Assembly (NCBI GenBank): GCA_017938315.1
Contig: JAGBBV010000029.1
Span: forward strand, 1 to 41,216
Length of the DNA stretch: 41,216 nucleotides
Direction of reading: 5' to 3'
Origin: Lachnospiraceae bacterium
GTDB lineage: Bacteria; Bacillota; Clostridia; Lachnospirales; Lachnospiraceae
Made by a program: the position numbers and the translations under genes. The notes beneath the pieces are model-generated. The model saw only the letters and a list, made by a program, of their open reading frames with translations. It ran no database searches and had not been told where the DNA came from. Below, piece by piece: positions 1-19,863 of the stretch (positions are counted from its first letter, which is position 1; the number at the start of each line of letters is the position of its first letter).

Positions 1-333
1 AAAACCATTCTCTGTATATCCCTTATTAAAAGACAAACTATTCTCAGTCTGTGACATACAAATATAGCCACTGTTAATAATCAAATCCTTATAATCCAGT
101 AAACGGCTTTCCTTTGGAGCTTCTACCAAAATATCAATAATCGGTTTTGCCCATATAGAAGAAACCGCCGTACTTCCAATATGACTTATTCTTTCAGTTG
201 AAAAAAGGGCATTTTTCAATAACCATTCTTCCTCAGAATACCATTCTTGCCAACAAGATTGATGTTCTGTTAAATATATAGGGAATAACTGCCACAGTTC
301 TCCCAAAGTCATTTCTGACAATCTCTTTCCCAT
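1..333 (-). CDS. GrpB family (UPF0157) protein, 3' end outside window
   Basis: This frame is open from an ATG at 333 to the window edge, giving 111 residues with no stop. Around residues 50-72 it reads HIGSTAVSSIWAKPIIDILV, the signature of the GrpB/UPF0157 family, which has a nucleotidyltransferase-like fold. The family's usual length is about 170-190 residues, so roughly the C-terminal third is missing because of the window edge, not a mutation. The ribosome binding site (GTAGGTGAG) is the last part of the junction element at 341-385, directly downstream of the nitroreductase gene. No substrate can be inferred; GrpB proteins are often found near acetyltransferases and other accessory genes. 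Confidence 0.85.
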   Translation of the reverse strand, partial: MGKRLSEMTLGELWQLFPIYLTEHQSCWQEWYSEEEWLLKNALFSTERISHIGSTAVSSIWAKPIIDILVEAPKESRLLDYKDLIINSGYICMSQTENSLSFNKGYTENGF

Positions 334-340
334 CACACTC

Positions 341-385
341 ACCTACAACTTCAAATTTTCTGCTCCCTACAAATTGGAATTTAAC
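341..385 (-). repeat. Junction element, full form (nitroreductase / GrpB)
   Basis: On the plus strand this reads as an 18-base block (CTACAACTTCAAATTTTC), 7 variable bases (tgctccc), then a 15-base block (TACAAATTGGAATTT). The two constant blocks are identical to those at 2141-2186. Inverted arms TTCAAATTT and AAATTGGAA flank a 12-base centre. On the coding strand the element begins inside the TAA stop of the nitroreductase and ends in the ribosome binding site of the GrpB gene, so it makes up the whole intergenic space. Confidence 0.75.
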
Positions 386-917
386 GGATTGACTTTGGAA
401 AGGCATTAAACCAGGCACGTTCCTCAAAATCTTTTTTCTTAGGAAGAATAGGGGTTGTCTTTGCAATGCCTACCGGAAGAAAACATACCAACTCGAATTC
501 ATCTGGTACTCCAAGGATTTGAGCCATTTGATAACCAATTTTATCTTCATCCGTAATATGTCCCTCAAACCAGCAGCTTTGATAACCAAGCTCAACAATA
601 GCAAGTAACATGTTCTCAATTGCTGCGGAATAGTCCTGAATAGCAAAGCATTTATCACGATATGCATAGACTCTCTGTGTAAGGACACAAATCATTGCCG
701 GTGCAGTTTCGCCCACAGGTGGATTAATCACTCGGCGAAGTTTTTCCAAAACAGCAGGATCATCAACCGCTATCAGGCTCGTTGTCTGCTTATTGCAGCC
801 CGACGGTGCGGCCAAGCCTGCTTTCATTATTTTAATTAAGTCTTCTTTGGGAATAGACGTGTTCTCGTACTCACCACGATAACTATGCCTGCTGTTAATT
901 GCATCCAGTGTATTCAT
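381..917 (-). CDS. Nitroreductase family protein
   Basis: A 178-residue protein of the FMN-dependent nitroreductase fold, probably an NAD(P)H-dependent reductase of the cytoplasm. The N-terminal RHSYR (residues 10-14) matches the FMN phosphate-binding SRRSxR motif, and AAPSGCNKQ (about 36-44) matches the second conserved segment. The C-terminal half (LGYQSCWFEG, then the LP/VG segment) is also typical. Length fits the smaller members of the family. The ATG follows a strong AGGAGG. The 103-base gap upstream (918-1020) holds only a weak resemblance to the junction element near the ribosome binding site. The stop codon lies inside the junction element at 341-385. The substrate is unknown. Confidence 0.88.
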   Translation of the reverse strand: MNTLDAINSRHSYRGEYENTSIPKEDLIKIMKAGLAAPSGCNKQTTSLIAVDDPAVLEKLRRVINPPVGETAPAMICVLTQRVYAYRDKCFAIQDYSAAIENMLLAIVELGYQSCWFEGHITDEDKIGYQMAQILGVPDEFELVCFLPVGIAKTTPILPKKKDFEERAWFNAFPKSIR

Positions 918-1020
918 ATTGTCCTCCTATCAATTGCTTCAAACTGAAAGGTTCCTCCCCTTATTGATTAGATGTTATTTCTCCTGTTGCTTAATATTTC
1001 CATCATATATAAAATGTGAT

Positions 1021-1623
1021 TTATTCACCTGCTTCGTCATATCTCGGATAACGCTTTTTATCTGCCTCTGTAATTTCACGTAATACCCGACATGGAGTTC
1101 CCACAGCAATCACATTGGACGGAATGCTTTTTGTTACAACGCTTCCGGCTCCTATCACTGTATTGTCACCTATTGTTACACCGCCTAAAACAATAGTCCC
1201 CGCACCTATCCACACATTATCTCCTATTGTAATAGGCAATGCCACTTCAAGCCCTTCATTTCGTTGTTCCGCATCAAGCGCATGCTCTGCCGTTGTAAAA
1301 ATGCAGTTCGGAGCAATAAAAACATAATCTCCAAAAGTCACTTTACCGCCATCTAAAATCTGACAACCATGATTTGCAAAAAAGAAACTGCCCACTGTGG
1401 TATTGTAACCATAGTCGCACCAAAACGGTGTATTTACAGTAACCCATTCTCCCATTCGTCCAAAAATCTTTTTTAATATCTCCGTTTGCGCCCCACGATC
1501 AGACGGCTTTATTTGATTAAATTCATGACACAAATCATTACATCTACTGATTTCTCCCAGTAGTTCTTCATCATAATTCGGATTATATAGATATCCGGCT
1601 GCAGCTTTTTCTTTTTCAGTCAT
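1021..1623 (-). CDS. Maltose/galactoside O-acetyltransferase family (left-handed beta helix)
   Basis: A 200-residue acetyl-CoA-dependent sugar O-acetyltransferase of the Maa/LacA type. The N-terminal 'Mac' helical domain (about residues 1-60, KEKAAAGYLYNPNYDEEL) is followed by hexapeptide repeats (ITIGDNVWIGAGTIVLGGV, VTIGDNTVIGAGSVV) that build the left-handed beta helix. TTAEH near residue 113 carries the catalytic histidine. Full family length. The ATG has a GGAGGAGG ribosome binding site that lies within the single-block junction element at 1635-1653. The acceptor sugar cannot be told from sequence. Confidence 0.92.
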   Translation of the reverse strand: MTEKEKAAAGYLYNPNYDEELLGEISRCNDLCHEFNQIKPSDRGAQTEILKKIFGRMGEWVTVNTPFWCDYGYNTTVGSFFFANHGCQILDGGKVTFGDYVFIAPNCIFTTAEHALDAEQRNEGLEVALPITIGDNVWIGAGTIVLGGVTIGDNTVIGAGSVVTKSIPSNVIAVGTPCRVLREITEADKKRYPRYDEAGE

Positions 1624-1634
1624 ATCTTTATTCC

Positions 1635-1685
1635 TCCTCCAAATTCAAATTCTTGACTGCTTTCAACTCTTCACAAGGCTGAAAG
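1635..1685 (-). repeat. Junction element, variant (membrane protein / acetyltransferase)
   Basis: The part next to the acetyltransferase start (plus strand CCTCCAAATTCAAATTCTT) matches the 18-base block of the full element. The part next to the upstream stop is different: a hairpin with arms CTTTCA (1660-1665) and TGAAAG (1680-1685). The TGA stop of the upstream gene (1688-1690) directly abuts this hairpin, so the whole intergenic space is again element-like. Confidence 0.5.
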
Positions 1686-1687
1686 TT

Positions 1688-2128
1688 TCACGCTTTCATA
1701 CTCGAAATATTCTTATCATTTCCAAAAAGCAATGTCATAACAAACGCAACAATTATTAATATATGTAATACTACATGATATAAATCTGGAACATACCTTC
1801 CGCTCACGTCTATTAGTTGAATACAGTCTGAAAAATAAGCAATCTTTTTGTCCATATGTCCCATAAATCCTCTACCAAATATAGTATACCATTCATGACT
1901 TAAAAACTGGGTAATAAACCACATTCCCAACCATGCCAAATGTATATTTCTTCCAATTTTTCCAATAATTAAAGATAAAATAAATGTAACTGTTGGAACA
2001 AGCATAAATATCCATTCTTCCATAAATGCACTTGTTACCAAATATTTATCTCCAATCTTCAAGCCCGTCATAGAAAGGGCATACCACAATATAAGAACAA
2101 CATTACCAATTACATATAATTTTTTCAT
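1688..2128 (-). CDS. Small multi-pass membrane protein, unknown function
   Basis: A 146-residue hydrophobic protein with about four predicted membrane segments: near residues 5-22, 39-56, 62-80 and 115-135. A short lysine-containing tail follows. I do not recognise a family. It starts at an ATG preceded by GAGGTAATATG, with the ribosome binding region inside the full junction element at 2141-2186. Its stop abuts the next element. It behaves as a single-gene unit in the array, with no promoter visible of its own. Confidence 0.7.
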   Translation of the reverse strand: MKKLYVIGNVVLILWYALSMTGLKIGDKYLVTSAFMEEWIFMLVPTVTFILSLIIGKIGRNIHLAWLGMWFITQFLSHEWYTIFGRGFMGHMDKKIAYFSDCIQLIDVSGRYVPDLYHVVLHILIIVAFVMTLLFGNDKNISSMKA

Positions 2129-2140
2129 AAAACATATTAC

Positions 2141-2186
2141 CTCTACAACTTCAAATTTTCCGGTGTGTACAAATTGGAATTTGTCA
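2141..2186 (-). repeat. Junction element, full form (between two membrane proteins)
   Basis: The plus strand has the same 18-base block as 341-385 (CTACAACTTCAAATTTTC), 7 different centre bases (cggtgtg), and the same 15-base block (TACAAATTGGAATTT). The two copies are 1.8 kb apart in direct orientation, so recombination between them would release three genes. Here the element lies about 25 bases past the upstream gene's stop instead of overlapping it. Confidence 0.75.
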
Positions 2187-2210
2187 CTCTGACTAGTTTG
2201 TATATATACA

Positions 2211-2705
2211 TCACTTTTTAATTATAAAATTCAGATATCCATTAATTGTATGAATTATGAAAAACAGAAAAGCCGTCCCGGATAATAAATAGTTGCTTTT
2301 CCACAATCCAAAAAACAAATAGTACAAGGGAACAACTGCAAATTGACTAATTACAATTAACCAGCCGTATTGATATCCTAAAAAATAAAATGTCCATCCT
2401 ACAAAGTTTATCAATATCATAAGAATAGTTAATACAAAATAGACTTTTTCCTTTGTTGTTTCTATAGAAAAAAACTTAATATCATCTCTAACAACCAACA
2501 TTAATAAAAGCATTGAAAGCACACCAACCAACCCTTGTATTTTCTCAATCCATAGAATTTCATTTTGCATATTCATTATGGGATTTGATGAGGGTTTTAT
2601 TAAAGGCATAATTATGTATGGAATTTCTTGAATAACAAATGCAATAATTCCAATAAAAGAAATTCCCAAATAATAATTTCTAAATAAATGGACGAACTTA
2701 ATCAC
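2211..2705 (-). CDS. Multi-pass membrane protein, unknown function
   Basis: A hydrophobic protein of about 164 residues with five likely membrane segments and a KK C-terminus. No family is recognised. I place the start at a GTG (2705) because GGAGGAG sits six bases before it. The longer reading that begins at 2756 has no ribosome binding site and would overlap the promoter region shared with the divergent cupin gene. It is the most upstream minus-strand gene before the divergent cupin, so it probably has a promoter in 2706-2812. Confidence 0.65.
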   Translation of the reverse strand: MIKFVHLFRNYYLGISFIGIIAFVIQEIPYIIMPLIKPSSNPIMNMQNEILWIEKIQGLVGVLSMLLLMLVVRDDIKFFSIETTKEKVYFVLTILMILINFVGWTFYFLGYQYGWLIVISQFAVVPLYYLFFGLWKSNYLLSGTAFLFFIIHTINGYLNFIIKK

Positions 2706-2777
2706 ACCATTCTCCTCCTTTTTTGAGTCCATAAACATAACAGCAATTTTATACAATCTTCTTGCATCAAAGCCTAC

Positions 2778-2807
2778 TATAATATGCCTATAAGCAAAAA
2801 AGGAGGC
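2778..2807 (+). promoter_or_regulatory. -10 box and ribosome binding site of the cupin gene
   Basis: A perfect TATAAT lies at 2778-2783 and AGGAGG at 2801-2806, six bases before the ATG at 2813. No good -35 box is seen at the usual distance, so the promoter may need an activator; the nearby AraC-type protein is a candidate. This short interval also serves the divergent membrane-protein gene. Confidence 0.5.
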
Positions 2808-2812
2808 ATATT

Positions 2813-3199
2813 ATGAAAAATTTATTTGAAGCATTTAATCAGGGACAATTAATTATTCCCGGCAAAACAATGAACTTTGAAGGTATTCCATGGAACAAGC
2901 ATCCTGCCTTTGATGGCGTAGAATTAAAACACATTGTCACTGCAAGTGATACCAATGGTGAATTCAGTTTTCATCTGGTTCGGATTGCACCAAACAAGAG
3001 CATTTTTAATCACATCCACGAACTTCAATTGGAAACCCATGAGGTAATCTCGGGAGATGGAATCTGTATCAATAATCAATGTGAAATACCGTATTCTCCC
3101 GGGGTAATATCCATTATGCCTAATGCTGTTGCGCATGAAGTACATGCAGGTGATGATGGCTTGTTACTCTTTGCAAAATTTATTCCTGCTCTTTGCTAA
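2813..3199 (+). CDS. Cupin-domain protein
   Basis: A 128-residue single-domain cupin, the only plus-strand gene in the first 30 kb. The first cupin motif is recognisable at NHIHELQLETHEVISGDG (about residues 66-83, with H, H, E and G metal-site positions), and the second at PNAVAHEV (about 103-110). It could be a small sugar- or ligand-binding protein or an enzyme; the fold does not tell. It ends tail-to-tail with the AraC-type regulator, overlapping it by 20 bases. The pairing suggests that the regulator and the cupin form one module inserted into the minus-strand array. Confidence 0.85.
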   Translation: MKNLFEAFNQGQLIIPGKTMNFEGIPWNKHPAFDGVELKHIVTASDTNGEFSFHLVRIAPNKSIFNHIHELQLETHEVISGDGICINNQCEIPYSPGVISIMPNAVAHEVHAGDDGLLLFAKFIPALC

Positions 3200-3947
3200 T
3201 CTTAGCAACTTTTTGATATGACGCAGGTGTCATTCCCACAATCTTTTTAAAGCATTTGATAAAGTGGCTTTGGTCGCAGAAACCTGCATCTAAAGCCACT
3301 TCTGCTATTGTCTTATCACACAAAAGCATTTTTTGAGCCTTTCTGATTCTGCATTGTATTTGAAATTGATGCGGTGTAAGTCCTACTTCTTTCTTAAATT
3401 GGCGTATCATATGAAACGAACTTACACTTATCTCATTTGACATATCCTCGATGGAAACTGCTGCTTCCGGCACTTCAATTATCTTATGTTTTATATCCTT
3501 AGAATAGCTGCCTTTTGTTAGGTTCTTTAATTTATTTGCTAATAGCACAATCAATCCATCTGACAGAAGCTCTGAATATTTGACTGCTGTTTCCTTTTCA
3601 CCAAATAATTGATTTAATTTTTTGTCTATCATAAATCTAATGTTATTAATATCTGTCTGTATCAAATAGTCATGATGAATACATACACTAAGCATTGTAT
3701 AGGAACAATCTCTGACAGGCTTTATGGAATGCGGAACATCCATTGGGATGGTAAAGATATTATCCGATTTGCATACAAGCTTTTCTGCATTCGTTTCAAT
3801 TACAATTTCACCATCAACTACAATCCCTACTGTATAATGCTCCGCATGAGTATGTAAAGGATATGAAGTATTCACTTTATTAAGCAATACGATATCTATC
3901 GTATTATTGTTACTTGAAAAATAAAATCCATTTTCTTCATTATTCAT
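3180..3947 (-). CDS. AraC family transcriptional regulator with cupin sensor domain
   Basis: A 255-residue regulator. Residues about 25-95 form an AraC-type cupin sensing domain (YPLHTHAEHYTVGIVVDGE). The C-terminal hundred residues hold two helix-turn-helix motifs, ending in the signature IAEVALDAGFCDQSHFIKCF and GMTPASYQK. Length is normal for the family. It converges with the cupin gene and overlaps its last 20 bases. It probably controls the cupin and/or the neighbouring genes; the ligand is unknown. Confidence 0.9.
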   Translation of the reverse strand: MNNEENGFYFSSNNNTIDIVLLNKVNTSYPLHTHAEHYTVGIVVDGEIVIETNAEKLVCKSDNIFTIPMDVPHSIKPVRDCSYTMLSVCIHHDYLIQTDINNIRFMIDKKLNQLFGEKETAVKYSELLSDGLIVLLANKLKNLTKGSYSKDIKHKIIEVPEAAVSIEDMSNEISVSSFHMIRQFKKEVGLTPHQFQIQCRIRKAQKMLLCDKTIAEVALDAGFCDQSHFIKCFKKIVGMTPASYQKVAKISKEQE

Positions 3948-4011
3948 GATACTGTTCCTGCTTCTTATTTTGGGCTATATAGATGCCCATGTAGACACAT
4001 TTTTGCATATT

Positions 4012-4743
4012 TTATGCTAAAGCATTCTTCTCCAATTCATCTAAATAATTATTTACACATTCTTTATTATCGGGAAAATCATGACCTATAAAGTATCTTT
4101 CAAACTCAAACTTGTTTACAAACTCTCGATAGGTTTTTAATCTGCTTAACTTAACTTCTCCATTATTATATAGATCTTCACAGTCTGCATCTCCAACAAA
4201 TAGTGCCTTTTCTTGTGGTATATACACTAGCAGCGCATCTCGGCTATGTATGGAATCCCGTTCGTAAAGTTCCAACTGAATATCTCCTAAATCAAGTTTC
4301 ATATTATCATTGACCACCATATCAGTAGTCAAAACTTTTATCATAGATAAATCCGAATACACTTTTTGTATGCATTCGTTAACAAACTCTATATCTGTTC
4401 CATCTTTTACACGTTGTTCCATGTCTTTTCCGGTCCATTTCCAATTAGAAACAACTTCTAATTGTTGCTGTGTTAATTGGCTGGAAATAGACTTCCCCTG
4501 AATATACGGAAGCCCAAAAGTATGGTCCCAGTGCCAGTGTGTTATAATTGTATATTTCGGAACCTCAAAGCCTTCTTTTTGTATAGCGGAATAAAATTGT
4601 TCCACATGTTCTTTAGATTGCCCGGCATCTATAGCAACACTGTAGTCACGGCCCTTGATATAGTACAAAAATGGTCTATCTGTTTCTTGCTCACCAGAGA
4701 AAAAATATATCTTGTCTGTAACCTTTACAAATTCACTAGCCAC
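4012..4743 (-). CDS. MBL-fold metallo-hydrolase
   Basis: A 243-residue metallo-beta-lactamase-fold hydrolase. HWHWDHTFG (about residues 68-76) is the HxHxDH zinc-binding motif, GDADCED (about 183-189) supplies the bridging aspartate, and IGHDFP (about 218-223) the last histidine. The segment SIHSRDALLVYIP replaces the more usual GHTPGS. The start is a GTG at 4743 with TGAGGTG seven bases upstream. The substrate is not predictable, and nothing points to beta-lactam resistance. It is a single-gene unit of the array. Confidence 0.88.
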   Translation of the reverse strand: MASEFVKVTDKIYFFSGEQETDRPFLYYIKGRDYSVAIDAGQSKEHVEQFYSAIQKEGFEVPKYTIITHWHWDHTFGLPYIQGKSISSQLTQQQLEVVSNWKWTGKDMEQRVKDGTDIEFVNECIQKVYSDLSMIKVLTTDMVVNDNMKLDLGDIQLELYERDSIHSRDALLVYIPQEKALFVGDADCEDLYNNGEVKLSRLKTYREFVNKFEFERYFIGHDFPDNKECVNNYLDELEKNALA

Positions 4744-4750
4744 TCTATCA

Positions 4751-4775
4751 CCTCATAACAAAATTCATAGTTCGA
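4751..4775 (-). repeat. Possible degenerate junction element (single block)
   Basis: Between the stop of the GNAT gene and the start of the MBL gene the coding strand reads TATGAATTTTGTTATGAGGT. This resembles the block that precedes ribosome binding sites elsewhere in the array (ATATGAATTTGGAGGTG at 6375-6424). One block only, and AT-rich, so chance similarity is possible. Confidence 0.3.
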
Positions 4776-4780
4776 CCTGT

Positions 4781-5239
4781 TTATCTTACAGTTCCCTCCA
4801 TGAATATAACACACTCTTCTATATGAAAACCATTCTTCTCATAAAAAGCAACACTTGGATAACCACGCATTGTTGTAAGTACAATATTACTTATCTCCTC
4901 AGGCTCTGCTTGTAGTTCTCGCTTAACATATTCAAACATTCTGGTTCCAATACCTTTTCTTTGATAATCTGGATGAATACTTACCTCGTCTAACCACAGT
5001 TCTTTTTGACTCATATATGTCATTATTCTTCCGATTACCATTCCAACTACTATCTTTTCTTCACTGTCTAATACAATATATCCTCTGGAAACTCTTGCAG
5101 ACATTAATTCATCCAATCTTGTATAGGCTTGTTCAAAAGTCCAATTTTCGTTCCATGGCTCCTCTTTGAATGCTTTTATAAGTGTATCTGCACACATCGA
5201 TAGTTCGTTTTTTTCCAATCTTTTATACGTCAAATTCAT
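4781..5239 (-). CDS. GNAT family N-acetyltransferase
   Basis: A protein of about 152 residues with the GNAT acetyl-CoA site: EVSIHPDYQRKGIGTRMFEY (motif A, Q/RxxGxG/A) in the second half and GYPSVAFYEKNGF (motif B) near the end. I start at the ATG at 5239 because GGAGAG lies seven bases upstream. A longer reading from 5272 would overlap the preceding gene and lacks a site. The acceptor is unknown. The gene follows another GNAT gene by 29 bases, filled by an element-like block. Confidence 0.85.
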   Translation of the reverse strand: MNLTYKRLEKNELSMCADTLIKAFKEEPWNENWTFEQAYTRLDELMSARVSRGYIVLDSEEKIVVGMVIGRIMTYMSQKELWLDEVSIHPDYQRKGIGTRMFEYVKRELQAEPEEISNIVLTTMRGYPSVAFYEKNGFHIEECVIFMEGTVR

Positions 5240-5249
5240 TTGTAATCTC

Positions 5250-5272
5250 TCCATCAAATTAAAATTTTTCAC
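5250..5272 (-). repeat. Junction element, single block (GNAT / GNAT)
   Basis: On the coding strand TGAAAAATTTTAATTTGATGG runs from the TGA stop of the upstream GNAT gene into the GGAGAG ribosome binding site of the next. It resembles the GAAAATTTGAAGTTGTAGG block of the full element, with two or three differences. Confidence 0.4.
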
Positions 5273-5805
5273 TTAAACTTCAAGTACCAGAATATTGCTG
5301 TTGCATCAGACCATGGTTTGGGAAAATTTTTATAAAGCATAGTATTTACTGCTCCAATAATAAATCCACATTTTAAATAAAACCTACATGCTAACAAATT
5401 ATTATCTTGTGTTTCTAAAGCCAAACCATATAGCTCCTTGTCTTTTGCCCATTCAATAGCTTTCTGTATTAAAGCAGTTCCAACACCTTGTCCTCTGCTA
5501 GATTTCGATACACATATGTCCTCCACAAAAGCATACTTATTCCAATCTTTTCTTAATACTATTTGACCAACACATTCATTTTCAAAATATGCCAAAAAAA
5601 CTGCCTTATCCGGATTATCGATATAAAGTGAATAGTCACCATCTTCATCAGGATATGAATGTAAATGCGGACAGGCATATAATTCTTCCGTACATGTCCA
5701 TTCATCATTAACAAATGTTGGTTTAAGCTTTCCTATTATTTCAAATGCCTCATTAGCTTTATTCATATCTTTTAATGTGTCAAAACTCAATTTTACAATT
5801 TCCAT
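5269..5805 (-). CDS. GNAT family N-acetyltransferase
   Basis: A 178-residue GNAT protein. Motif A is VEDICVSKSSRGQGVGTALI (about residues 92-111), with RGQGVG as the acetyl-CoA pyrophosphate loop. Motif B follows in DNNLLACRFYLKCGF. The N-terminal third (YPDEDGDYSLYIDNPDKAVF) resembles streptothricin-type and related small-molecule acetyltransferases, but a specific drug activity is not supported. The ATG at 5805 has GCGAGGT upstream, within the inverted-repeat junction element at 5811-5853. Confidence 0.87.
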   Translation of the reverse strand: MEIVKLSFDTLKDMNKANEAFEIIGKLKPTFVNDEWTCTEELYACPHLHSYPDEDGDYSLYIDNPDKAVFLAYFENECVGQIVLRKDWNKYAFVEDICVSKSSRGQGVGTALIQKAIEWAKDKELYGLALETQDNNLLACRFYLKCGFIIGAVNTMLYKNFPKPWSDATAIFWYLKFK

Positions 5806-5810
5806 ATATG

Positions 5811-5853
5811 ACCTCGCTAAACTCCAATTTGTATGTCCTAAACAAATTGGGAT
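5811..5853 (-). repeat. Junction element, perfect inverted-arm form
   Basis: Perfect 9-base arms CCAATTTGT (5824-5832) and ACAAATTGG (5842-5850) flank a 9-base loop. The layout matches the full elements at 341, 2141 and 6375 (AATTT-containing inverted arms around a variable centre), but the arm sequence is more symmetrical. It fills the space between the stop at 5862 and the ribosome binding site of the gene starting at 5805. Confidence 0.55.
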
Positions 5854-5861
5854 TAATTAAT

Positions 5862-6368
5862 TTACAGATTTATCAAATAATACTGACTGATTTTCCCTTC
5901 GTTATAATTGTCATTTTCTTCCATCAGTATGCCACCATTCTTCTGAATGGTTGCTGCAGATGCCACATTGTCCTTATAGCAACCAAGTATAACCTTATCC
6001 TTTCCTCTCTCTCTGCATACGGACAACGCGTATCGGAGCATAATTGTTGCATATCCTTTGTTTCTTTCGGACGGTCTCACTCCATACCCTATATCACCAT
6101 ATTTTTTCGTAAGCGACTCGGAAAAGTCGTATCGAATACTTAATAAACCTATCAATTTGTTGTTGTCAAAACAAAGGTACAGCAATGATTTACCCCATAT
6201 TTCATCGCCAATCAATGCATTTTTTTGTATCTTTTCTACCCAATCAGGATACTCAGAAAAAGATAAACCTAAACTCGCACTGATGCTAGTTTCATTATTG
6301 TCGTAGTGTTCTTGAACATACTCTTGCAATATATTTTTGTCGCTAATTTCAGGAAGTCTATATATCAT
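5862..6368 (-). CDS. GNAT family N-acetyltransferase
   Basis: A protein of about 168 residues. Motif A is seen as GYGVRPSERNKGYATIML (RNKGYA pyrophosphate loop) at about residues 93-110, followed by VASAATIQKNGG (motif B), as in RimJ/RimL-like small GNATs. I chose the ATG at 6368, which has GGAGGTG seven bases upstream. The reading from 6398 would begin inside the junction element. The acceptor is unknown. Confidence 0.85.
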   Translation of the reverse strand: MIYRLPEISDKNILQEYVQEHYDNNETSISASLGLSFSEYPDWVEKIQKNALIGDEIWGKSLLYLCFDNNKLIGLLSIRYDFSESLTKKYGDIGYGVRPSERNKGYATIMLRYALSVCRERGKDKVILGCYKDNVASAATIQKNGGILMEENDNYNEGKISQYYLINL

Positions 6369-6374
6369 TTCACA

Positions 6375-6424
6375 CACCTCCAAATTCATATTTTCCAATG
6401 TCTACAAATTTGAATTTGTCTAAC
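6375..6424 (-). repeat. Junction element, full form (PurN-like / GNAT)
   Basis: The plus strand shows CTCCAAATTCATATTTTC, 7 centre bases (caatgtc), then TACAAATTTGAATTT. This is the same 18-7-15 layout as at 341 and 2141, with five changes in the first block and one in the second. On the coding strand it begins with GTTAGAC, which contains the TAG stop of the PurN-like gene, and ends with the GGAGGTG ribosome binding site of the next gene. Confidence 0.7.
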
Positions 6425-7013
6425 CTAAGGTAATTTTCCCACTTACGATATCTGCAATTACTTCTACCAAAAACTCGTGCTCTTTTTCTAAAACTCTTGC
6501 TCCTAATTGTTCTGGTGTATCATTTTCAAGTACTGGAACTGTTGCCTGTGCAACAATCTCGCCACTATCATATTCAGGACTAACTCTATGAATTGTAACT
6601 CCTGTTTCTTTTTCTTTTGCTTCTATAACCGCAGTATGTACGTTCATTCCGTACATACCTTTGCCACCAAATTTTGGCAGTAACGCAGGATGTATATTAA
6701 AAATTCTATTGTTATATTTTTCAAGAATTGATATATGCAACATTCTCATATACCCTGTTAAAAATATCATATCTATTTGATACTTTGATAATATCTTAAG
6801 TATTTCTTCTGCTAATAATTCTTCACTTCCAAATTTCTTTGCACTAAGATGATATGAAGGTATCCCCTCGTTATTTGCTCTCTGTAAAGCCATAGAACTT
6901 CCATTATTACTAATAACAACAGACACGTTAGCACCTATTCTCTTACTTTTACAACCATCTATTATTGCTTGCAAATCACTACCACCGTGAGAAGCAAAAA
7001 CTGCTATATTCAT
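6420..7013 (-). CDS. purN: Phosphoribosylglycinamide formyltransferase family (PurN-like)
   Basis: A 197-residue formyltransferase-fold protein. PurN transfers a formyl group from 10-formyl-tetrahydrofolate to GAR in purine synthesis. The phosphate-binding loop is ASHGGSDLQA (usually SGxGSNLQA). The catalytic triad is visible as N and H in FNIHPALLPKFGG and D in YDSGEI. Length is normal. I start at the ATG at 7013, placed eight bases after GGAGG. Two things are odd: the gene is alone, away from any pur operon, and its loop carries HGGSD, so it may be a divergent accessory paralogue with another substrate. Confidence 0.8.
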   Translation of the reverse strand: MNIAVFASHGGSDLQAIIDGCKSKRIGANVSVVISNNGSSMALQRANNEGIPSYHLSAKKFGSEELLAEEILKILSKYQIDMIFLTGYMRMLHISILEKYNNRIFNIHPALLPKFGGKGMYGMNVHTAVIEAKEKETGVTIHRVSPEYDSGEIVAQATVPVLENDTPEQLGARVLEKEHEFLVEVIADIVSGKITLG

Positions 7014-7030
7014 TTTCATTTCCTCCATAT

Positions 7031-7047
7031 TCACAAACTCAAATTTA
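7031..7047 (-). repeat. Junction element, single block (GNAT / PurN-like)
   Basis: The coding strand reads TAAATTTGAGTTTGTGA, starting at the TAA stop of the GNAT gene (7045-7047) and followed by the GGAGG of the PurN-like gene. It matches one block of the full element (AAATTTGAAGTTGT) with one or two changes. Confidence 0.45.
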
Positions 7048-7590
7048 TCTCCATTCTTTCCTTAAAAGTCGATATTCCAATCGAGTTTTCATTTTTCCAT
7101 CATGCCATTCATAATCAATGTGTTCAGCTTCTTTGATCAAACCACATTTTTGCATAACTCTTTCAGATCCGACATTTTCAGCTAAACACCCTGTAGAAAT
7201 TCTATATACGTTATTCTCTGAAAAAGCAAATTCGATCACTCGCTTAAAGGCTTCTGTTGTATATCCTTTTCCCCAGAACTTTGGATAAATAAAATATCCC
7301 GCACCCACAATTTTTCCTATAGGAGTCTCATCCATTACCGTATATCCAACACTCCCAAGCTGTTCATGGGAATCTTTTAATTCCATATGCATAAAGTAAA
7401 ACTTTCTATCAGATTTTTTCATATCTTCCAAAACAGTACGGAAGTCCTCATATGCTTCTTCTTTCGTAAACATTTGTATATCTTGTAAATAATACATTGT
7501 CTTAGAATCCGTTTTCAGCCGATAATAGTCCGAGAAATCATCCTCACAATAATCCCTCAAAATCAAGCGTTCCGTTTCCAGATATATCAT
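7045..7590 (-). CDS. RimJ/RimL-type GNAT N-acetyltransferase
   Basis: A 181-residue protein with the usual RimL-like opening (LETERLILRDYCEDDF, residues 4-19). The acetyl-CoA site is AGYFIYPKFWGKGYTTEAF (about 96-114), and motif B is AENVGSERVMQKCGL. Members acetylate ribosomal protein N-termini or small molecules; which applies here is unknown. The ATG at 7590 has AAGGA eleven bases upstream, a weaker spacing than its neighbours. The stop codon overlaps the junction block. Confidence 0.9.
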   Translation of the reverse strand: MIYLETERLILRDYCEDDFSDYYRLKTDSKTMYYLQDIQMFTKEEAYEDFRTVLEDMKKSDRKFYFMHMELKDSHEQLGSVGYTVMDETPIGKIVGAGYFIYPKFWGKGYTTEAFKRVIEFAFSENNVYRISTGCLAENVGSERVMQKCGLIKEAEHIDYEWHDGKMKTRLEYRLLRKEWR

Positions 7591-7612
7591 TTCTCACTGC
7601 ATCCTTTCGCAT

Positions 7613-7655
7613 GGTAAAATTCGAAGTTATCTACTTCATTCACCTTCAAAGTTTA
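7613..7655 (-). repeat. Junction element, rearranged form (cupin / GNAT)
   Basis: Two blocks are present but with different order and symmetry. The coding strand runs from the TAA stop (7653-7655) through AACTTTGAAGGTGAA, then ATAACTTCGAATTTTACC, which resembles the reverse complement of the usual block. A small hairpin GAAGTAGATAACTTC lies in the middle. Confidence 0.4.
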
Positions 7656-8000
7656 CTCATTATATGTACCACCTGTATTGTCTTTATTAAGAGTCCCTTC
7701 AACCTCAATCAAAAGGCACTTCACTAATGTCTTACAAACGGGCCGATGTTTTGTTCCCTTTGGTACAATTACGAAATCGCCTTCGCATAAATGCGTTAAT
7801 CCTTCCTCGAATTCCATATCAAACTCACCTTCAATACAATAAAACATTTCATCCGAAGTTTCATGTACATGAAAATCTAAAGTTCTGTTTTCTGCTTGTA
7901 AAACATTTAACATATGGTTGTTTAACGTTCCAACTCTTTTATATAAAAATAATTCATCAACTTCATTAACACTATCTTTTAAATTAATTTTTCTAACCAT
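7653..8000 (-). CDS. Cupin-domain protein
   Basis: A 115-residue single cupin barrel. The first motif is HVHETSDEMFYCIEGEF (about residues 44-60), with H, H and E metal positions. The second is GDFVIVPKGTKHRPVC (about 74-89). The short lysine- and asparagine-rich tail is unremarkable. Related small cupins act as epimerase-like or mannose-6-phosphate isomerase-like proteins, but nothing fixes the ligand here. The gene starts 27 bases after the NUDIX stop, with GCGAGG before the ATG. It may be co-transcribed with NUDIX. Confidence 0.87.
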   Translation of the reverse strand: MVRKINLKDSVNEVDELFLYKRVGTLNNHMLNVLQAENRTLDFHVHETSDEMFYCIEGEFDMEFEEGLTHLCEGDFVIVPKGTKHRPVCKTLVKCLLIEVEGTLNKDNTGGTYNE

Positions 8001-8027
8001 ATTTAAAACCTCGCAATTTCTGATTTG

Positions 8028-8528
8028 TTATTGTATATATCCCATTTTTTCAAAGAACTTCTGATAACGTTTTCTTTGTACATCAATTATTTCGTTTGAA
8101 TTTATAAAAGAAATGAAGTCATTTTCAGAGATCCATTTGTATGATATTGTTTCACCTTCTTGAAGAGAAACAGATGCCTTATCGCAATCAGTGACACATA
8201 AAAAATTATAGTATATAGTATCGTGAGAAATGTGCCGACCAATTTCCATGAAATCGTCAGAAGAAATCCCTGTCTCTTCCAAAAGTTCTCGTTTTGCACA
8301 TGATACCTTGTCTTCTCCTTTTAACGCAGAACCTCCAGCAGTTGCCTCATAGTAGCCTCCATAGTTAGGTTTTCGTACGTCTCTCCTCATAAGCAAATAA
8401 TCACCATCAATATGTCTGACCAGAATCTCGCTGACAAGGTGGTACAACCCTTTGGGTATAGGTTCCCCTCGTACCAAATCTTGATTTGCTAAAGTTCCAT
8501 CTATCAAGTACGCGTCCCAAATTTCCAA
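8028..8528 (-). CDS. NUDIX hydrolase
   Basis: A 166-residue hydrolase of nucleoside-diphosphate-linked compounds. The Nudix box spans about residues 65-88: it begins GGSALKGED and ends RELLEETGI, so the metal-binding REx2EE core is intact. I choose a TTG start at 8528 (protein beginning with Met-Glu-Ile-Trp-Asp), because GGAGGTG lies six bases upstream and this is the usual family start. The longer reading from 8558 begins upstream of this site. The preferred substrate is unknown. Confidence 0.88.
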   Translation of the reverse strand: MEIWDAYLIDGTLANQDLVRGEPIPKGLYHLVSEILVRHIDGDYLLMRRDVRKPNYGGYYEATAGGSALKGEDKVSCAKRELLEETGISSDDFMEIGRHISHDTIYYNFLCVTDCDKASVSLQEGETISYKWISENDFISFINSNEIIDVQRKRYQKFFEKMGYIQ

Positions 8529-8536
8529 AATATTCA

Positions 8537-8556
8537 CCTCCATAAATTGGAACATC
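8537..8556 (-). repeat. Possible junction element, single block (M24 / NUDIX)
   Basis: The coding strand reads GATGTTCCAATTTATGGAGG. It starts at the TGA stop of the peptidase gene and runs into the ribosome binding site of NUDIX. TTCCAATTT equals the arm of the full element. Confidence 0.4.
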
Positions 8557-9241
8557 ATAGTTCCTTAATAACTCCATGATCAAAATAGTAAATATTCTCT
8601 CTTTTATACCCATATTTTGAATTCGGAACACTTATATGAGGTTCAAAAGTAAAGTAATCGACATCACCAAGCGATATTTGATTTCCCTTTTCTATGTAAA
8701 CTCTATCACTTTTCAGTCTCACAATGGAATGTCCCAAGTTACCCATAAAATCAAGATTAATATAGCCTTTTCGTTCTATAATGTTATTGATATAATAATA
8801 CAGTTCTTCAAAAGTCGTTTTAGGTGTAACAAATTTGCACATTTCCTCATGCAAATATTCTTCCATCAACAATCCGTTCTTCCATTCCTCATTTGACACA
8901 TTGTCATTCTCAACTATTTTTCCCTTTTCAATAATAATAGTTCTTGCATAATCGCCCCATGTATCTCCATTTTGTGGACTCAAATCAATTGTAATAATGT
9001 CATTCTCTGCAATAACTCTTTTGCTTGTAATATATTCTTTTCCCGAAACAGATAGAGTGGTTTCGTCCCCTGCAAAAACAAAAGCTCCCACATCCCAATA
9101 CCAAAAAGAATCAGCTCCCAATTCCATCATTTTTGTTTCACACAACTTCCTTATATCAAGTAATGTCATTCCCGGCTGTATCTTCTTTTTAATGAACTCA
9201 ATTGTCTTTTTTGCTATATTCTGTACCTCTGTATATTGCAT
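8555..9241 (-). CDS. M24 family metallopeptidase-like protein
   Basis: A 228-residue protein of the pita-bread (Xaa-Pro dipeptidase / methionine aminopeptidase) fold. Metal-ligand positions are visible: D in ITIDLSPQN, D in WGDYARTI, H in NLGHSIV, E in FEPHIS and a last E in KRENIYYF. It is shorter than typical aminopeptidase P because it consists of the catalytic domain alone. I prefer the second ATG (9241), seven bases after GGAG, over the one at 9247. It may process a small peptide or be a creatinase-like hydrolase. Confidence 0.85.
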   Translation of the reverse strand: MQYTEVQNIAKKTIEFIKKKIQPGMTLLDIRKLCETKMMELGADSFWYWDVGAFVFAGDETTLSVSGKEYITSKRVIAENDIITIDLSPQNGDTWGDYARTIIIEKGKIVENDNVSNEEWKNGLLMEEYLHEEMCKFVTPKTTFEELYYYINNIIERKGYINLDFMGNLGHSIVRLKSDRVYIEKGNQISLGDVDYFTFEPHISVPNSKYGYKRENIYYFDHGVIKEL

Positions 9242-9306
9242 AACCATTCTCCATAATCTTCAAAGTTAATATTTCAACAAAAATGTGCAATTGTGCTGAA
9301 AAAACA

Positions 9307-9882
9307 TCAGAAATTCATTTGTATAATTTTTTCAAATGGAATAAATTCCTTGGGCGGATATGTACGCTTACCTATTATTTTTTCCATCTCAACTAAATTG
9401 TACCATCTGCCAAATTTACTTCCGCATTCGTGGTATCTTGCAACAACCTTATATCCAATGGCTTCGTGGAAATGTTCGCTATTACGCGTAAGATATTCAT
9501 CTTCTTCCACTGGGTCAGCGGCTCCTGCATATACGTTGACAACATTTTGTTTCACCAAAATATTTTCAAGTTCTGCATAAAGCATCTTTCCAATTCCCAT
9601 TCTGTGATACTGCTTATCTATATATATTGATGTCGACGCACTCCACGCATACGACGCTCTTGTTCTGAATCTACCTGCATAAATATACCCAGCTATTTTT
9701 CCATTGACCACTGCCACCAAATAGGGATAATTATTAAGTGTTTCTTTTATTCTGCATATAAATTCTTCCACCGTTGGAACTGCATGCTCAAATGTAATTG
9801 CAGTATTTTTAACATAATATGCATATATACTTAACAATTCTCCTGCATCTTCTTCACTTGCAACTCTAATCAAGATTTCCAT
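9307..9882 (-). CDS. GNAT family N-acetyltransferase (phosphinothricin/methionine sulfoximine type)
   Basis: A 191-residue GNAT of the Pat/YwnH/MddA group. It opens with IRVASEEDAGELLSIYAYYV and contains TAITFEHAVPTVEEF. The acetyl-CoA motif is SIYIDKQYHRMGIGKMLY (HRMGIG loop), with HEAIGYKVVARYHECGSKFG near the C-terminus. Members acetylate phosphinothricin or methionine sulfoximine, which makes this the best substrate guess in the GNAT set. Start at 9882 after AAGGTGAAAAG. The last 15 residues (KRTYPPKEFIPFEKIIQMNF region) are rather variable in the family. Confidence 0.87.
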   Translation of the reverse strand: MEILIRVASEEDAGELLSIYAYYVKNTAITFEHAVPTVEEFICRIKETLNNYPYLVAVVNGKIAGYIYAGRFRTRASYAWSASTSIYIDKQYHRMGIGKMLYAELENILVKQNVVNVYAGAADPVEEDEYLTRNSEHFHEAIGYKVVARYHECGSKFGRWYNLVEMEKIIGKRTYPPKEFIPFEKIIQMNF

Positions 9883-9940
9883 CTTTTCACCTTCCACTTA
9901 TCATACATAATCAATCTTCTCTGGCAAATGACAAACCAAT

Positions 9941-9967
9941 TATGTAAAATTCACAAATTGAAATTTA
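9941..9967 (-). repeat. Junction element, single block (HhH protein / GNAT)
   Basis: The coding strand reads TAAATTTCAATTTGTGAATT, beginning at the TAA stop of the HhH gene (9965-9967). It resembles the stop-proximal block of the full element (TTAAATTCCAATTTGTAG). The 60 bases between it and the next start have no matching second block. Confidence 0.45.
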
Positions 9968-10495
9968 TTCTTCTGTAAAAATATTCGTAAATGCTCTTGC
10001 AACAGCTATATGAGTCTTAATTTCCTTCATTAACGGTACCTTTAAGCTCAGATTTTCTTCTCTTATTACACTTTCTGTCTTTGTAATGATTTCTTGAGGC
10101 GAGGAGTTTGCAATATCAGTCAAAGAGTGAAAACCCGCTTTATAATAGAGCCTCGCTCTCGTGCTTTTTACCCCAGGCAGCTGATACAGTTCTTTAAAAG
10201 ATTGTATTTCTTTATTCTCTTTGCAAACAGTTGTAATCTCTTTTAATTTCGCTGGTTTGATATCATACAAACTCAGAAACATTCTAAAAAGACGTACCAT
10301 TTCAACATCTGCTAAACCCGCTTCTAACAACGAATCATCTGATAATTTCATGCAATCGGATTTTGTGTTGCACCCTATTTTACTCAAATTTTCTATGAGA
10401 ATTTTTTTGTATGGTATTAATGGATAATATCTTGTTAAAATACAATCCTCATTCAATAAGATTGTTATTGCCGCTATCTTATAATCAGTATTCAA
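9965..10495 (-). CDS. Helix-hairpin-helix protein (DUF4332-like)
   Basis: A 176-residue protein with two helix-hairpin-helix-like halves. The C-terminal half is the clearer one: LPGVKSTRARLYYKAGFHSL followed by TDIANSSPQEI, a pattern seen in DUF4332 and other HhH proteins. The N-terminal half (LSKIGCNTKSDCMKLSDDSLLEAGL) is similar but weaker. Such modules usually bind DNA or act in protein contacts. The start is a TTG at 10495, with GGAGGTG five bases upstream. The real role is unknown. Confidence 0.7.
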   Translation of the reverse strand: MNTDYKIAAITILLNEDCILTRYYPLIPYKKILIENLSKIGCNTKSDCMKLSDDSLLEAGLADVEMVRLFRMFLSLYDIKPAKLKEITTVCKENKEIQSFKELYQLPGVKSTRARLYYKAGFHSLTDIANSSPQEIITKTESVIREENLSLKVPLMKEIKTHIAVARAFTNIFTEE

Positions 10496-10500
10496 CCCAA

Positions 10501-10532
10501 CACCTCCACAACAGCAACTTCAAATTTGTTTA
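10501..10532 (-). repeat. Junction element, single block (kinase / HhH protein)
   Basis: The coding strand reads TTAAACAAATTTGAAGTTGC, beginning at the TAA stop of the kinase gene and ending before GGAGGTG. AAATTTGAAGTTG is identical to the block in the elements at 341 and 2141. Confidence 0.55.
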
Positions 10533-11123
10533 ATAATGTTCAATACAAAAATCAACCCACTCTTTCACTTTCTTCCCAACTTCATCTGCATTCAAATCAT
10601 CTACATTTAAAACATCTACATTTTCTTTTCCTATAAACCAATTTCTTTTTAATGGCAATAAATACTTCAAATGATGTTCGAAAAAGTTTCTGGAACGGGT
10701 ATTATCATTCTCCTTATGTTTTAATAATACTTCATTTGAGGCATCTAAAAATAATATTCTTGTTGGCATACACTTTCGGACTTGTTCAAGCTCCTTATGT
10801 AATGCATTTTCAATTTCCCACTCTTGTCCTATAGTTTTCGGGTAATTTAAAGTATAAAATTCTATTTCCTCAGCTCCAAAATCCATAACACTACAACTAA
10901 AATTTTGGGCTTTATTATAGCGAACAACTTCCTTGTTAAGCCATAATTTCTGTATCTCCAAATAATCTTCGTATTTGTTTTTATCTAGCTGACGTCGTTT
11001 TACTTCATCAATAATATCCGTATTAATTTCATAACTAATATTTACGTACGGAGCATTTTCTTGTAAATATCGTACTGCAGTTGTTTTTCCTACAGCCATG
11101 CAACCTTGTAAAGAAAGTATCAT
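10530..11123 (-). CDS. P-loop kinase/ATPase-like protein (thymidylate-kinase-like)
   Basis: A 197-residue protein beginning with a Walker A loop, LQGCMAVGKTTA (residues 5-16; GxxxxGKT). A probable Walker B or lid region follows at ILFLDASNEVLLKHK, with a basic DNTRSRNFF stretch. The overall shape resembles deoxynucleoside/thymidylate-kinase-like P-loop proteins, but the substrate is open. I start at the ATG at 11123, preceded by GGAGG at proper spacing. The reading from 11144 would start before the upstream stop codon. Single-gene array unit. Confidence 0.75.
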   Translation of the reverse strand: MILSLQGCMAVGKTTAVRYLQENAPYVNISYEINTDIIDEVKRRQLDKNKYEDYLEIQKLWLNKEVVRYNKAQNFSCSVMDFGAEEIEFYTLNYPKTIGQEWEIENALHKELEQVRKCMPTRILFLDASNEVLLKHKENDNTRSRNFFEHHLKYLLPLKRNWFIGKENVDVLNVDDLNADEVGKKVKEWVDFCIEHY

Positions 11124-11128
11124 ATGTT

Positions 11129-11143
11129 TCCTCCTCAAATTCA
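11129..11143 (-). repeat. Possible junction element, minimal block
   Basis: The coding strand TGAATTTGAGGAGGA joins the TGA stop of the CPBP gene (11141-11143) to the ribosome binding site of the kinase gene. It matches the core AATTTGA(A)GG part only, and it is the last recognisable example going toward higher coordinates. Confidence 0.35.
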
Positions 11144-11896
11144 TCTCTCAGTATTACTAAGATTTTGTTCTTTAATTGAAAGAACGACTGCCGTAACAAT
11201 AATGATTATTCTACAAGCGTATGACACATATTGGCTCCCACCCATTGCTAATTGTGTGAAAACATTGATTAGCGAATGTGTCATCACACATATCCACAAA
11301 CTATTTGTCTTTATAAATAAAGCGGATAAAATAAAGCAATTTGTCAATAATCCAAGTGAAAATTCAAAAGCCTGTACTTGTGGCAACGTTCCTTCAATAT
11401 AGAAATAAGAAAAATGCCATATTTCCCATGCAACAAAAGTAATGATTGTTGAAGTGATATAATTATGGCGTTCCTGTAAAACCGGTTGAAAAACATATCT
11501 CCATCCTACTTCTTCAATCCCACCAAATATGATTGCTTTAAGAAATAAGATAATAGGAATATACCACGCACTTAACACTAATTTTCCATTAACTGCAACA
11601 TAACCAAAATCCAAAATCAAGAATATAAGAACCCAAAAATAACTGCTAAAATTTTGCTTTACAGCAAAAAAATCTTTTAGTATTTTCTTCATACCGTACT
11701 TTTTGTATCTTATTGCAATAATAGCTCCCCATAGAGCAGATGAAACTCCTCCAATTCCAATAGCAGCCATTCCTACCTGCGTCGTATAATCTACAACCAT
11801 ACCCAAATTACGCAATATAAAAACTATAATACATACCATCCATATTTGTCCTAAAGTTCCTGACAAATAAAGGGCAATCGCTTTATTTCGACTCAT
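11141..11896 (-). CDS. CPBP family intramembrane metalloprotease
   Basis: A 251-residue membrane protein with about seven or eight hydrophobic segments. The Abi/CAAX protease motifs are complete: EEVGWR (motif 1, EExxxR, about residues 128-133), WEIWHFSYF (motif 2, FxxxH-like) and a later MTHSLIN segment. The family includes CAAX-processing-like and bacteriocin self-immunity proteins. No bacteriocin gene is seen nearby, so immunity is only a possibility. It starts 20 bases after the RhuM stop and may share its transcript. Confidence 0.88.
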   Translation of the reverse strand: MSRNKAIALYLSGTLGQIWMVCIIVFILRNLGMVVDYTTQVGMAAIGIGGVSSALWGAIIAIRYKKYGMKKILKDFFAVKQNFSSYFWVLIFLILDFGYVAVNGKLVLSAWYIPIILFLKAIIFGGIEEVGWRYVFQPVLQERHNYITSTIITFVAWEIWHFSYFYIEGTLPQVQAFEFSLGLLTNCFILSALFIKTNSLWICVMTHSLINVFTQLAMGGSQYVSYACRIIIIVTAVVLSIKEQNLSNTER

Positions 11897-11916
11897 AAAT
11901 ATCCCCTAATACTTCT

Positions 11917-12915
11917 TTATTTTCTTACTCCTTTTTTAGCAGCCTTACCTGCATCTTTAATCGTTTCCATATATGCTTGTTCCACTGGTGATATAGTAAT
12001 CGCTTGATACTTTGTATATTCCGCCTTCGCTTTTTTCATTGCCTCATCGTGACTAACCTTACCGGAACCTGTCAGCAATTTTCTGTTTCCAGATGACAAA
12101 ACAGAATCCAATTGTTCAACATAATCACTCATATACATCGGTCTATGTTCAATAGCATTAATTTCCGCTAAGTCAAAATAACCGGATACAAGATTATTCA
12201 ATATTTTTAACTCATCTTCCTTTAAATAATTTTTAGCTACTCCTATATCTTTAAGTGCCGGCAATTCTCCTTTAAATGATGTCAATCCCATAAAAGGTTT
12301 TTCTGCATCTGCACGTTCGTAGATTACTTCAGCCGCAGTATGTCCATGTGCTGCGTAATGTAATTTATTTTGCACAATCTTAAAGAATAAAATAGATTGC
12401 TCACTATGAGGGTCATAGTCCACACTTGTTGCATACAAATCTAGTACCTGACGATACAACACTTTCTCAGATGAACGGATATCTCTAATACGATCAAGTA
12501 ATTCTTTCCAGTAATTACCACCGCCGTTTCCTTTTAAGCGTTCATCATCCATGGTAAAGCCTTTTATCATATACTCTTTTATTCGTTCAGTTGCCCATCG
12601 TCTAAATTGAGTTGCAATAGATGATTTTATTCTATACCCCAACGAAATTATCATATCCAAGTTGTAGTAAGTTACATTATAGTTTTTACCATCGGAAGCA
12701 GTTGTTCGGAATTTCCGAACAACTGACTCTTCATCAAGCTCTCCCTCTTCAAAAATATGTTTAATATGTTCACTAACATTAGATTTGCTGGATTGATATA
12801 ACTCTACCAGTTGTTGCTGTGTAAGCCAAACTGTTTCATCTTCAATTTTAACATTTATGTTTGTTAATCCATCTTCTGTTTGATAGATTAAAATCTCTCC
12901 ATATCTTTCTTCCAT
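11917..12915 (-). CDS. rhuM: RhuM family protein
   Basis: A 332-residue protein of the RhuM family (COG3943). N-terminal features are VWLTQQQLVELYQSSKSNVS, a DNA-binding-like segment, and the highly conserved RIKSSIATQFRRWATERIKE (about 97-116). The C-terminal half has GHTAAEVIYERADAEKPFMG, resembling the Fic/death-on-curing context these proteins carry. RhuM was first named from a Salmonella pathogenicity island, and the molecular role is not settled. I start at the second ATG, seven bases after AGGAG. It marks the edge of the element-bearing zone. Confidence 0.88.
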   Translation of the reverse strand: MEERYGEILIYQTEDGLTNINVKIEDETVWLTQQQLVELYQSSKSNVSEHIKHIFEEGELDEESVVRKFRTTASDGKNYNVTYYNLDMIISLGYRIKSSIATQFRRWATERIKEYMIKGFTMDDERLKGNGGGNYWKELLDRIRDIRSSEKVLYRQVLDLYATSVDYDPHSEQSILFFKIVQNKLHYAAHGHTAAEVIYERADAEKPFMGLTSFKGELPALKDIGVAKNYLKEDELKILNNLVSGYFDLAEINAIEHRPMYMSDYVEQLDSVLSSGNRKLLTGSGKVSHDEAMKKAKAEYTKYQAITISPVEQAYMETIKDAGKAAKKGVRK

Positions 12916-13000
12916 TTCCATGCTCCTATCAACTACTTATTTTAATTACGCCTCACAGAGCGAAATACACCCTTCGTACTAATCTTCCACCCATTTAAAC

Positions 13001-13747: not shown

Positions 13748-13757
13748 CGTCATCACC

Positions 13758-14845: not shown

Positions 14846-14864
14846 CAATTAAACTCCACATTTA

Positions 14865-15530: not shown

Positions 15531-15544
15531 TGCAAGCCACCTCC

Positions 15545-16204: not shown

Positions 16205-16222
16205 GCTGTCCTTCTCCATGAA

Positions 16223-17281: not shown

Positions 17282-17308
17282 CCTAATATCCCCACCTCTC
17301 TAAACATT

Positions 17309-18831: not shown

Positions 18832-18880
18832 TACAAACCTCCATCTGCCCGAGTACATTTCCATAAACTCTACTTATTTA

Positions 18881-19846: not shown

Positions 19847-19863
19847 TTTGTCCTCTTTCCTTT

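Follow-up and report, generated by a model that had tools for sequence, protein, structure and literature searches.

Cassette-like, mostly single-gene units in a Lachnospiraceae genome, possibly bounded by attachment sites of a mobilizable-element type tyrosine integrase

The nearest described counterparts of arrays of single genes are integrons and clusters of attC sites lacking integron-integrases (CALIN), with the integrase IntI, the attI site and attC sites whose core motif is GTTRRRY. In the pdif modules of Acinetobacter plasmids single genes are flanked by short XerC/D recombinase sites, and Tn916 prefers AT-rich targets. According to passages of the IntegronFinder 2.0 paper (PMC9024848), integrons are extremely rare in Firmicutes, whose RefSeq genomes hold a single complete one (Limnochorda pilosa) and a few CALIN; for integron properties and tyrosine recombinase classes we drew on excerpts of PMC8618304 and PMC8138268. 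Cis-mobilizable elements (CIMEs) and the accretion of integrative and mobilizable elements (IMEs) are established (PMC5704250, PMC7563491), and in the composite structures treated in the consulted sections of PMC7563491 one target gene is shared by two or three elements. Here we analyse a contig of 41,216 nucleotides (nt) from a Lachnospiraceae bacterium (GCA_017938315.1, JAGBBV010000029.1; all of it is called the window) that opens with an array of small accessory genes. We lean towards reading this array as a row of single-gene units whose borders are attachment sites for an IME-type integrase, an arrangement that would be cassette-like without being an integron. The titles and opening abstracts among the literature matches listed, a scope outside which subscription papers and preprints lay, held no description of such arrays in Lachnospiraceae.

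The array (1-11896, open reading frames (ORFs) and Pfam) carries 19 of its 20 genes on the minus strand, in line with an earlier note on this DNA, which had placed nearly all genes on one strand, the sole exception being a cupin gene at 2813-3199; read along the minus strand, the array is cut off by the contig end (C25) within a GrpB gene. Its proteins match GrpB, nitroreductase, hexapeptide acetyltransferase, AraC, a weak cupin, a metallo-beta-lactamase fold and five GNATs, then formyltransferase, cupin, NUDIX, M24, DUF4332, a weak AAA, an Rce1-like family and, adjoining the array, RhuM; two membrane proteins of the array have no Pfam family. We searched window positions 1-13000 against 37 genomes of the genus and found DNA matches in at least 24 of them, a lower bound since scoring took in the best eight candidates of each genome. 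Outside the window, the matches listed are confined to single genes, with two kinds of exception: the joined, convergent and overlapping cupin/AraC pair, and four short intergenic matches (G161:C27 and G162:C38, given as genome:contig, both to the element at 1630-1690, and contigs C8 and C20 of the window's own genome, G000). Ten of 20 window genes (1-12.9 kb, plus-strand cupin left out) have DNA homologues in the genus loci examined, and these alignments extend no further than 14 nt ahead of the start codon and 4 nt beyond the stop codon. Judged from such boundaries, a reading of the array as cassette-like, mostly single-gene units is supported. A side observation concerns 2813-3947, where the cupin gene converges on and overlaps the AraC gene; as both match jointly in several relatives, the pair looks like a two-gene unit.

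Comparison with this locus in two other species points the same way. The window is colinear with G162:C20 over 26-41 kb, including a 7.6-kb alignment at 77% identity, and the variable, mostly one-directional gene run, which extends to about 25.4 kb, ends at an anchor gene of 157 amino acids (aa) (25396-25869, minus strand), whose product is 91% identical at the aa level in G162 and 94% in G163. Of 37 window ORFs downstream of this gene, 3 have a counterpart in G162 (ORFs of at least 60 aa; at least 45% identity over at least 60% coverage), namely RhuM (95%), 2-hydroxyacid dehydrogenase (78%) and the GrpB fragment (50%), the comparison being partial because the contig end truncates the window array; three more have matches of 26-31%. 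RhuM and the dehydrogenase stand in reversed order in G162, so the fixed gene order that the earlier note had named as counter-evidence is not what we see, and the cassette-like units that it proposed are supported by both the turnover and the alignment ends. In G163:C18 one counterpart (47%) passed the filter, and a nitroreductase match (76% at the nt level) lies outside called genes. One gene downstream on contig C4 of the window's own genome matches G162:C20 beyond its array (73%); C4 is therefore probably the far end of the locus. As a separate observation, the RhuM gene (11917-12921, minus strand) is 89% identical in DNA to its G162:C20 homologue, over a span that opens 14 nt ahead of the start codon and closes 4 nt beyond the stop codon, while the flanking block reaches only 77%, which suggests a later exchange of this gene.

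The earlier note had described a recurring palindromic element joining the genes. In its full form the element pairs a left site (CAAATTCCAATTTG type), close to a stop codon, with an inverted right site (AAATTTGAAGTTG type) that ends at the next ribosome-binding site. All copies given here lie on the minus strand. Full elements occur at 342-385 (left site 370-383, whose start falls inside the nitroreductase-like gene's stop codon; right site 342-359, ahead of the GrpB gene), 2140-2185 (left site 2170-2183, an exact CAAATTCCAATTTG; right site 2142-2159), 6375-6420 (left site 6405-6418, right site 6377-6394) and, diverged, 5812-5854. The junction before the hexapeptide acetyltransferase gene (1630-1690, right site 1636-1653) matches G161:C27 (90%) and G162:C38 (84%). 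Partial forms are a right-site half element at the start of the GNAT gene 4781-5272 (5251-5268), a short site (7022-7047) between the GNAT gene 7045-7590 and the formyltransferase gene 6420-7034, a right-site-like sequence after the cupin gene 7653-8000 (7637-7654), a left-site-like sequence at the stop codon of the DUF4332 gene 9965-10495 (9954-9967) and a right-site half element between that gene and the AAA gene 10530-11144 (10511-10528). Full and half-size elements are confined to 1-11.2 kb. The three copies noted before are thus real (343-385, 2143-2185 and 6378-6420), and the first two share identical 18-base and 15-base blocks around seven variable bases; however, a full copy is present at only four junctions, with one half or nothing elsewhere. 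In three full copies the left site starts at the stop codon or no more than about 8 nt away from it, close to the placement at or inside the stop codon given in the note, but in the copy at 2143-2185 it starts about 27 nt downstream.

Both site types exceed chance. With up to two mismatches, CAAATTCCAATTTG has nine matches at seven places, six in the array and one at 18087 (palindromic places score once per strand), compared to a mean of 1.76 in dinucleotide shuffles; AAATTTTGAAGTTGNNGG, with up to three mismatches, has eight matches, seven in the array and one at 39372 (shuffle mean 1.70). None of 100 shuffles reached nine or eight matches, respectively, so a match frequency like that of shuffled DNA, which would have undone the original claim, was not observed. 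Contig C8 of the same genome has a further full copy close to its end, 3' of a GNAT-like gene; this copy is 90% identical over 42 bases to that at 343-382. A strict full-element pattern, however, matched only the window's own genome among 150 family genomes (one per genus; 0 of the 149 other genera) and had no match in viral contigs. The element is therefore a degenerate family of sites rather than the single conserved repeat first assumed, and its relatives are found at other junctions and in other genomes. Contigs C10, C4 and C8 of the window's genome end in elements or within about 350 nt of them, presumably through assembly breaks at shared sequence. G000:C10 (L010, 5394 bases) carries element halves at both ends and a cut-short AAA-type gene, followed by MobC-like, response-regulator-like and UvrD-like helicase genes (named by reading).

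Two other repeat forms were noticed. At some junctions a longer composite repeat, GAATTGACCGAGCTCTTTnGAGCGAGGnATGAC and then CAATTGAnCnAAGnTCAATTGTATGG, precedes the right-hand site and shows a compensating change in its stem (G175:C35, L049 2330-7150; G162:C20, C38 and C11; G163:C7, C105 and C66; G165:C69; L229 525-804); its hairpin pattern occurs in 4 of the 37 genus genomes, and its first part recurs in E. eligens. A second site form follows stop codons in several arrays, AAACTTTCAG...CTGAAAG/CTGAGAG or TTGAAAG and then GAATTTG or GAACTTG (L095 8400-11110 in G162:C38; L178; L131 767-825; window 1630-1690).

The statement that no integrase is visible holds for the window, where none of the genome's 13 tyrosine-recombinase matches lies, but not for the genome: contigs C11 and C24 open with near-identical integrase 3' ends, followed by a shared segment that ends in GAGAAATTTTGAAGTTG, the same site as in the array. 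The next gene differs, an ankyrin gene in one and a GNAT gene in the other. In general, the segment of about 100 nt follows a tyrosine integrase of about 432 aa, ends in the right-hand site and runs into differing genes; the right-hand array site matches the end of this segment both in the window's genome and in further Lachnospiraceae. With 432 aa in L187, the integrase scores under the XerC, XerD and integron model cut-offs, and a relative carries the PF00589 domain. AAGGGAAA repeats flank the site in the segment and are likely arm-type sites. Segment and integrase end were matched in 13 of 37 genus genomes (E up to 0.001); among eight aligned segment copies homology stops at the site in five (C11, C24, G165 and two of G161), from which G164, G185 and a second C24 copy differ at that point. 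A 48-nt segment pattern hit 23 loci in 21 assemblies out of 84,980 species genomes, four being the G161, G164 and G165 loci already seen; 22 of the 23 come from metagenome-assembled or uncultured genomes, mostly Lachnospiraceae, and one from an isolate, Acetivibrio ethanolgignens. Together with C11 and C24, and leaving out one locus that is too short, 24 usable segments agree with the consensus at 83-100 of 100 positions and then diverge. An attI-like feature is present here, the same integrase-side segment preceding different genes: an ORF (at least 70 codons) starts within 60 nt of the segment at 16 of 24 junctions compared to 1481 of 14400 random positions (10%; binomial p 5e-11, with junctions that are not all independent). 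Window gene 1021-1623 has a homologue (80% nt identity) as the first gene after the segment in G161:C61. In G152 and G156 a related element abuts opposite-strand array genes in the same manner with its other end; G180 is less clear, and G151 does not show this. The segment had no match in viral contigs; phage records yielded two partial integrase matches.

Two further recombinase candidates were set aside: the best own-genome match, C40:84398, is an XerD-like gene by reading, and a family of 306-329 aa, found in several genus genomes and often near contig ends, had no adjoining array in the loci read. On G000:C24 (L131 1240-4460), TetR, CPBP-like and flavodoxin-like genes (by reading) and a short ORF are bracketed by a left-end sequence and a degenerate right-end sequence with no integrase, making this stretch a candidate non-autonomous element.

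We scored the junctions with a matrix built from 19 of 25 integrase-side cores (six were too diverged; two of the 19 are from the window's genome). The 16 window junctions scored (1-12 kb) omit the copy at 343-382, where the cut GrpB gene is uncalled, and those longer than 250 nt or between opposite strands. Eleven of them exceed the 95th percentile of 99 control junctions, compared to 16% of their own shuffles (Mann-Whitney p 1.7e-8). Junctions also scored high in G162:C38 (9 of 17), G175:C35 (5 of 8) and G162:C20 (6 of 27, p 0.005). Allowing one mismatch, AAAWTTTGAAKTTGNNGG has 11 matches in the window's genome, five in the window array and two at the integrases, and none for the reversed control; across ten genomes the counts are 30 and 4, some of the 30 lying inside coding sequence.

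In 72,556 plasmid records the integrase stretch matched only NZ_CP143948.1, a plasmid of Agathobacter rectalis DFI.5.28 (68% nt identity over 99%); no second A. rectalis record was found there. Its integrase (WP_306785428.1) sits in an element with a MobA/MobL relaxase, among small genes with like sites, in the order left end, MobA/MobL, integrase, arm segment, first small gene (element ends placed by reading the arm repeats). Integrase and relaxase in one integrated element, the hallmark of an IME, are thus found here and not in the window array. The left end, which comes after a small gene, carries AATTTAATAACTGTTATAT, as on contigs C24 and C20 of the window's genome. Site-like sequences were read on the left side, and past an IS91-type insertion small genes are set apart by two full-size elements, AAATTTCAGCTTGTCGAGCTGGAAAATTTGAATTT and a near copy of it. 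In E. eligens ATCC 27750 an arm-like segment adjoins a run of genes in one direction that includes sugar O-acetyltransferase, nitroreductase and GNAT genes; the first two are only 40% and 24% like those of the window.

Taken as attachment sites, the elements would delimit each unit from one right-hand site, just before a ribosome-binding site, to the next, with an inverted left-hand copy sometimes near the unit's stop codon. The integrase, judged by its length and the AAGGGAAA repeats, would be of the arm-binding kind and would recombine at sites in double-stranded DNA. Excision of a single unit between two direct site copies, and its insertion next to the integrase arm, would then parallel what cassettes and attI do in integrons. 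Such units would also be left behind if mobile elements that had entered at these sites decayed, a CIME-like accretion. The window array, which has no integrase itself, would depend on one acting in trans or would be an older array left stranded. More tentatively, and with somewhat less than even confidence, we consider that Lachnospiraceae may have evolved an integron counterpart independently, in which an IME-derived tyrosine integrase uses its own end as attI and both captures and shuffles single-gene cassettes with double-stranded core sites on chromosomes and megaplasmids. Movement of units is deduced here rather than seen. Several results weigh against the reading as units bounded by integrase sites. 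Neither circular units nor recombination were observed in the sequences analysed, and no strain pair differing by one unit was found, the two L. eligens records being identical over 15 kb. The junctions at 13-25 kb lack the element although gene content turns over there too (matrix, 1 of 15 above threshold, p 0.44), and those of G163:C18 do not stand out (2 of 9, p 0.33). The array-bearing genomes G162, G163 and G175 have no match to the integrase segment, so that the reading requires a different enzyme in them or the loss of their copy. Most integrase-side loci are metagenome-assembled contigs; 8 of 24 integrase-side junctions, including that of A. ethanolgignens, lack an ORF start; upstream of 11 scan loci, seven have an integrase ORF of at least 385 aa, two a 109-aa C-terminal piece and two none, and in G161 the gene preceding the segment is not the integrase. 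Instead of preceding a first gene, the E. eligens arm-like segment, with no listed integrase, is placed at the last gene's 3' end.

A competing view, which we regard as rather unlikely, is that the IME integrase merely lands (attB) at intergenic sites of arrays built by homologous recombination or other mobile elements and never moves single genes. The relaxase-bearing A. rectalis element, left ends that also abut array genes, arrays in genomes with no segment match and a window with no integrase all fit this view, which leaves unexplained why the same kind of site marks many unit boundaries and why homologues only 67-89% alike break at single genes. The integrase resembles Tn916-type and IME enzymes in its length of about 432 aa, AAGGGAAA repeats near both ends and AT-rich targets; unlike theirs, the targets here share a core and precede gene starts far more often than random positions do. 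Less probable again is CIME-type accretion, that is, repeated IME insertion at like sites with deletion of mobility genes, the units being fossils no longer individually mobile. This process is known for other elements (PMC5704250, PMC7563491), IME ends abut array genes here, whatever the order of events, IMEs are inserted among units bounded by attachment-like sites, and three genes with a short ORF on C24 lie between left- and right-end sequences with no integrase. However, the composites in the part of PMC7563491 consulted comprise two or three elements and occupy one target gene, whereas mostly single-gene units follow one another in long rows here and are not stacked at one target; moreover, the window junctions have core-like sites and, by reading, none of the arm repeats that attL and attR ends would keep.

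An unrecognised integron or CALIN with attC hairpins is very improbable. Tandem one-directional single-gene units of accessory enzymes, an integrase beside a site and a variable first gene, and paired inverted sites at some unit ends, resembling the left and right halves of attC, are all integron-like, and two of five full elements folded alone give z < -2. Yet the integron integrase model TIGR02249 passed its cut-off in 0 of 37 genus genomes, and the associated integrase scored 52.2 bits (cut-off 265); this enzyme is not IntI, is oriented like the units and, in A. rectalis, forms part of an IME, and the core differs from that of attC. The 12 window junctions fold at a mean z of -0.21, none below -2, and show no excess over shuffles or controls (55 control junctions, terminators included, mean -0.95); the seven junctions of G175:C35 have a mean z of -2.28 (p 0.027). 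The pdif modules are alike in placing single genes between short recombinase sites, but the site here is different and the window's genome has a separate XerD-like gene (by reading). Hardly credible, finally, is the absence of any mobility, with AT-rich spacers serving a regulatory or RNA function in a fast-evolving operon. Composition could account in part for AT-rich sites by ribosome-binding sites, and shuffled junctions do pass in 16%; still, site counts beat shuffles, junction scores beat control junctions, the core is common to the integrase-side segment, and the genes of the locus turn over.

Should common gut and rumen Lachnospiraceae do the job of integrons with another enzyme, an accessory gene pool of GNATs, NUDIX, phosphotransferases and others would be mobile yet invisible to integron finders, and platforms for gene capture would have arisen two times, each from a different tyrosine recombinase. 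The named sites and integrase make this directly testable in cultured isolates.

The remainder of the variable region (13001-25366) is on one strand, the minus strand, and has no detectable elements. It encodes AAC(3)-like, AadA_C, HAD, amidohydrolase, methyltransferase, 2-hydroxyacid dehydrogenase (18881-19879) and APH proteins; two aminoglycoside-enzyme-like proteins among them score under the curated NCBIfam cut-offs.

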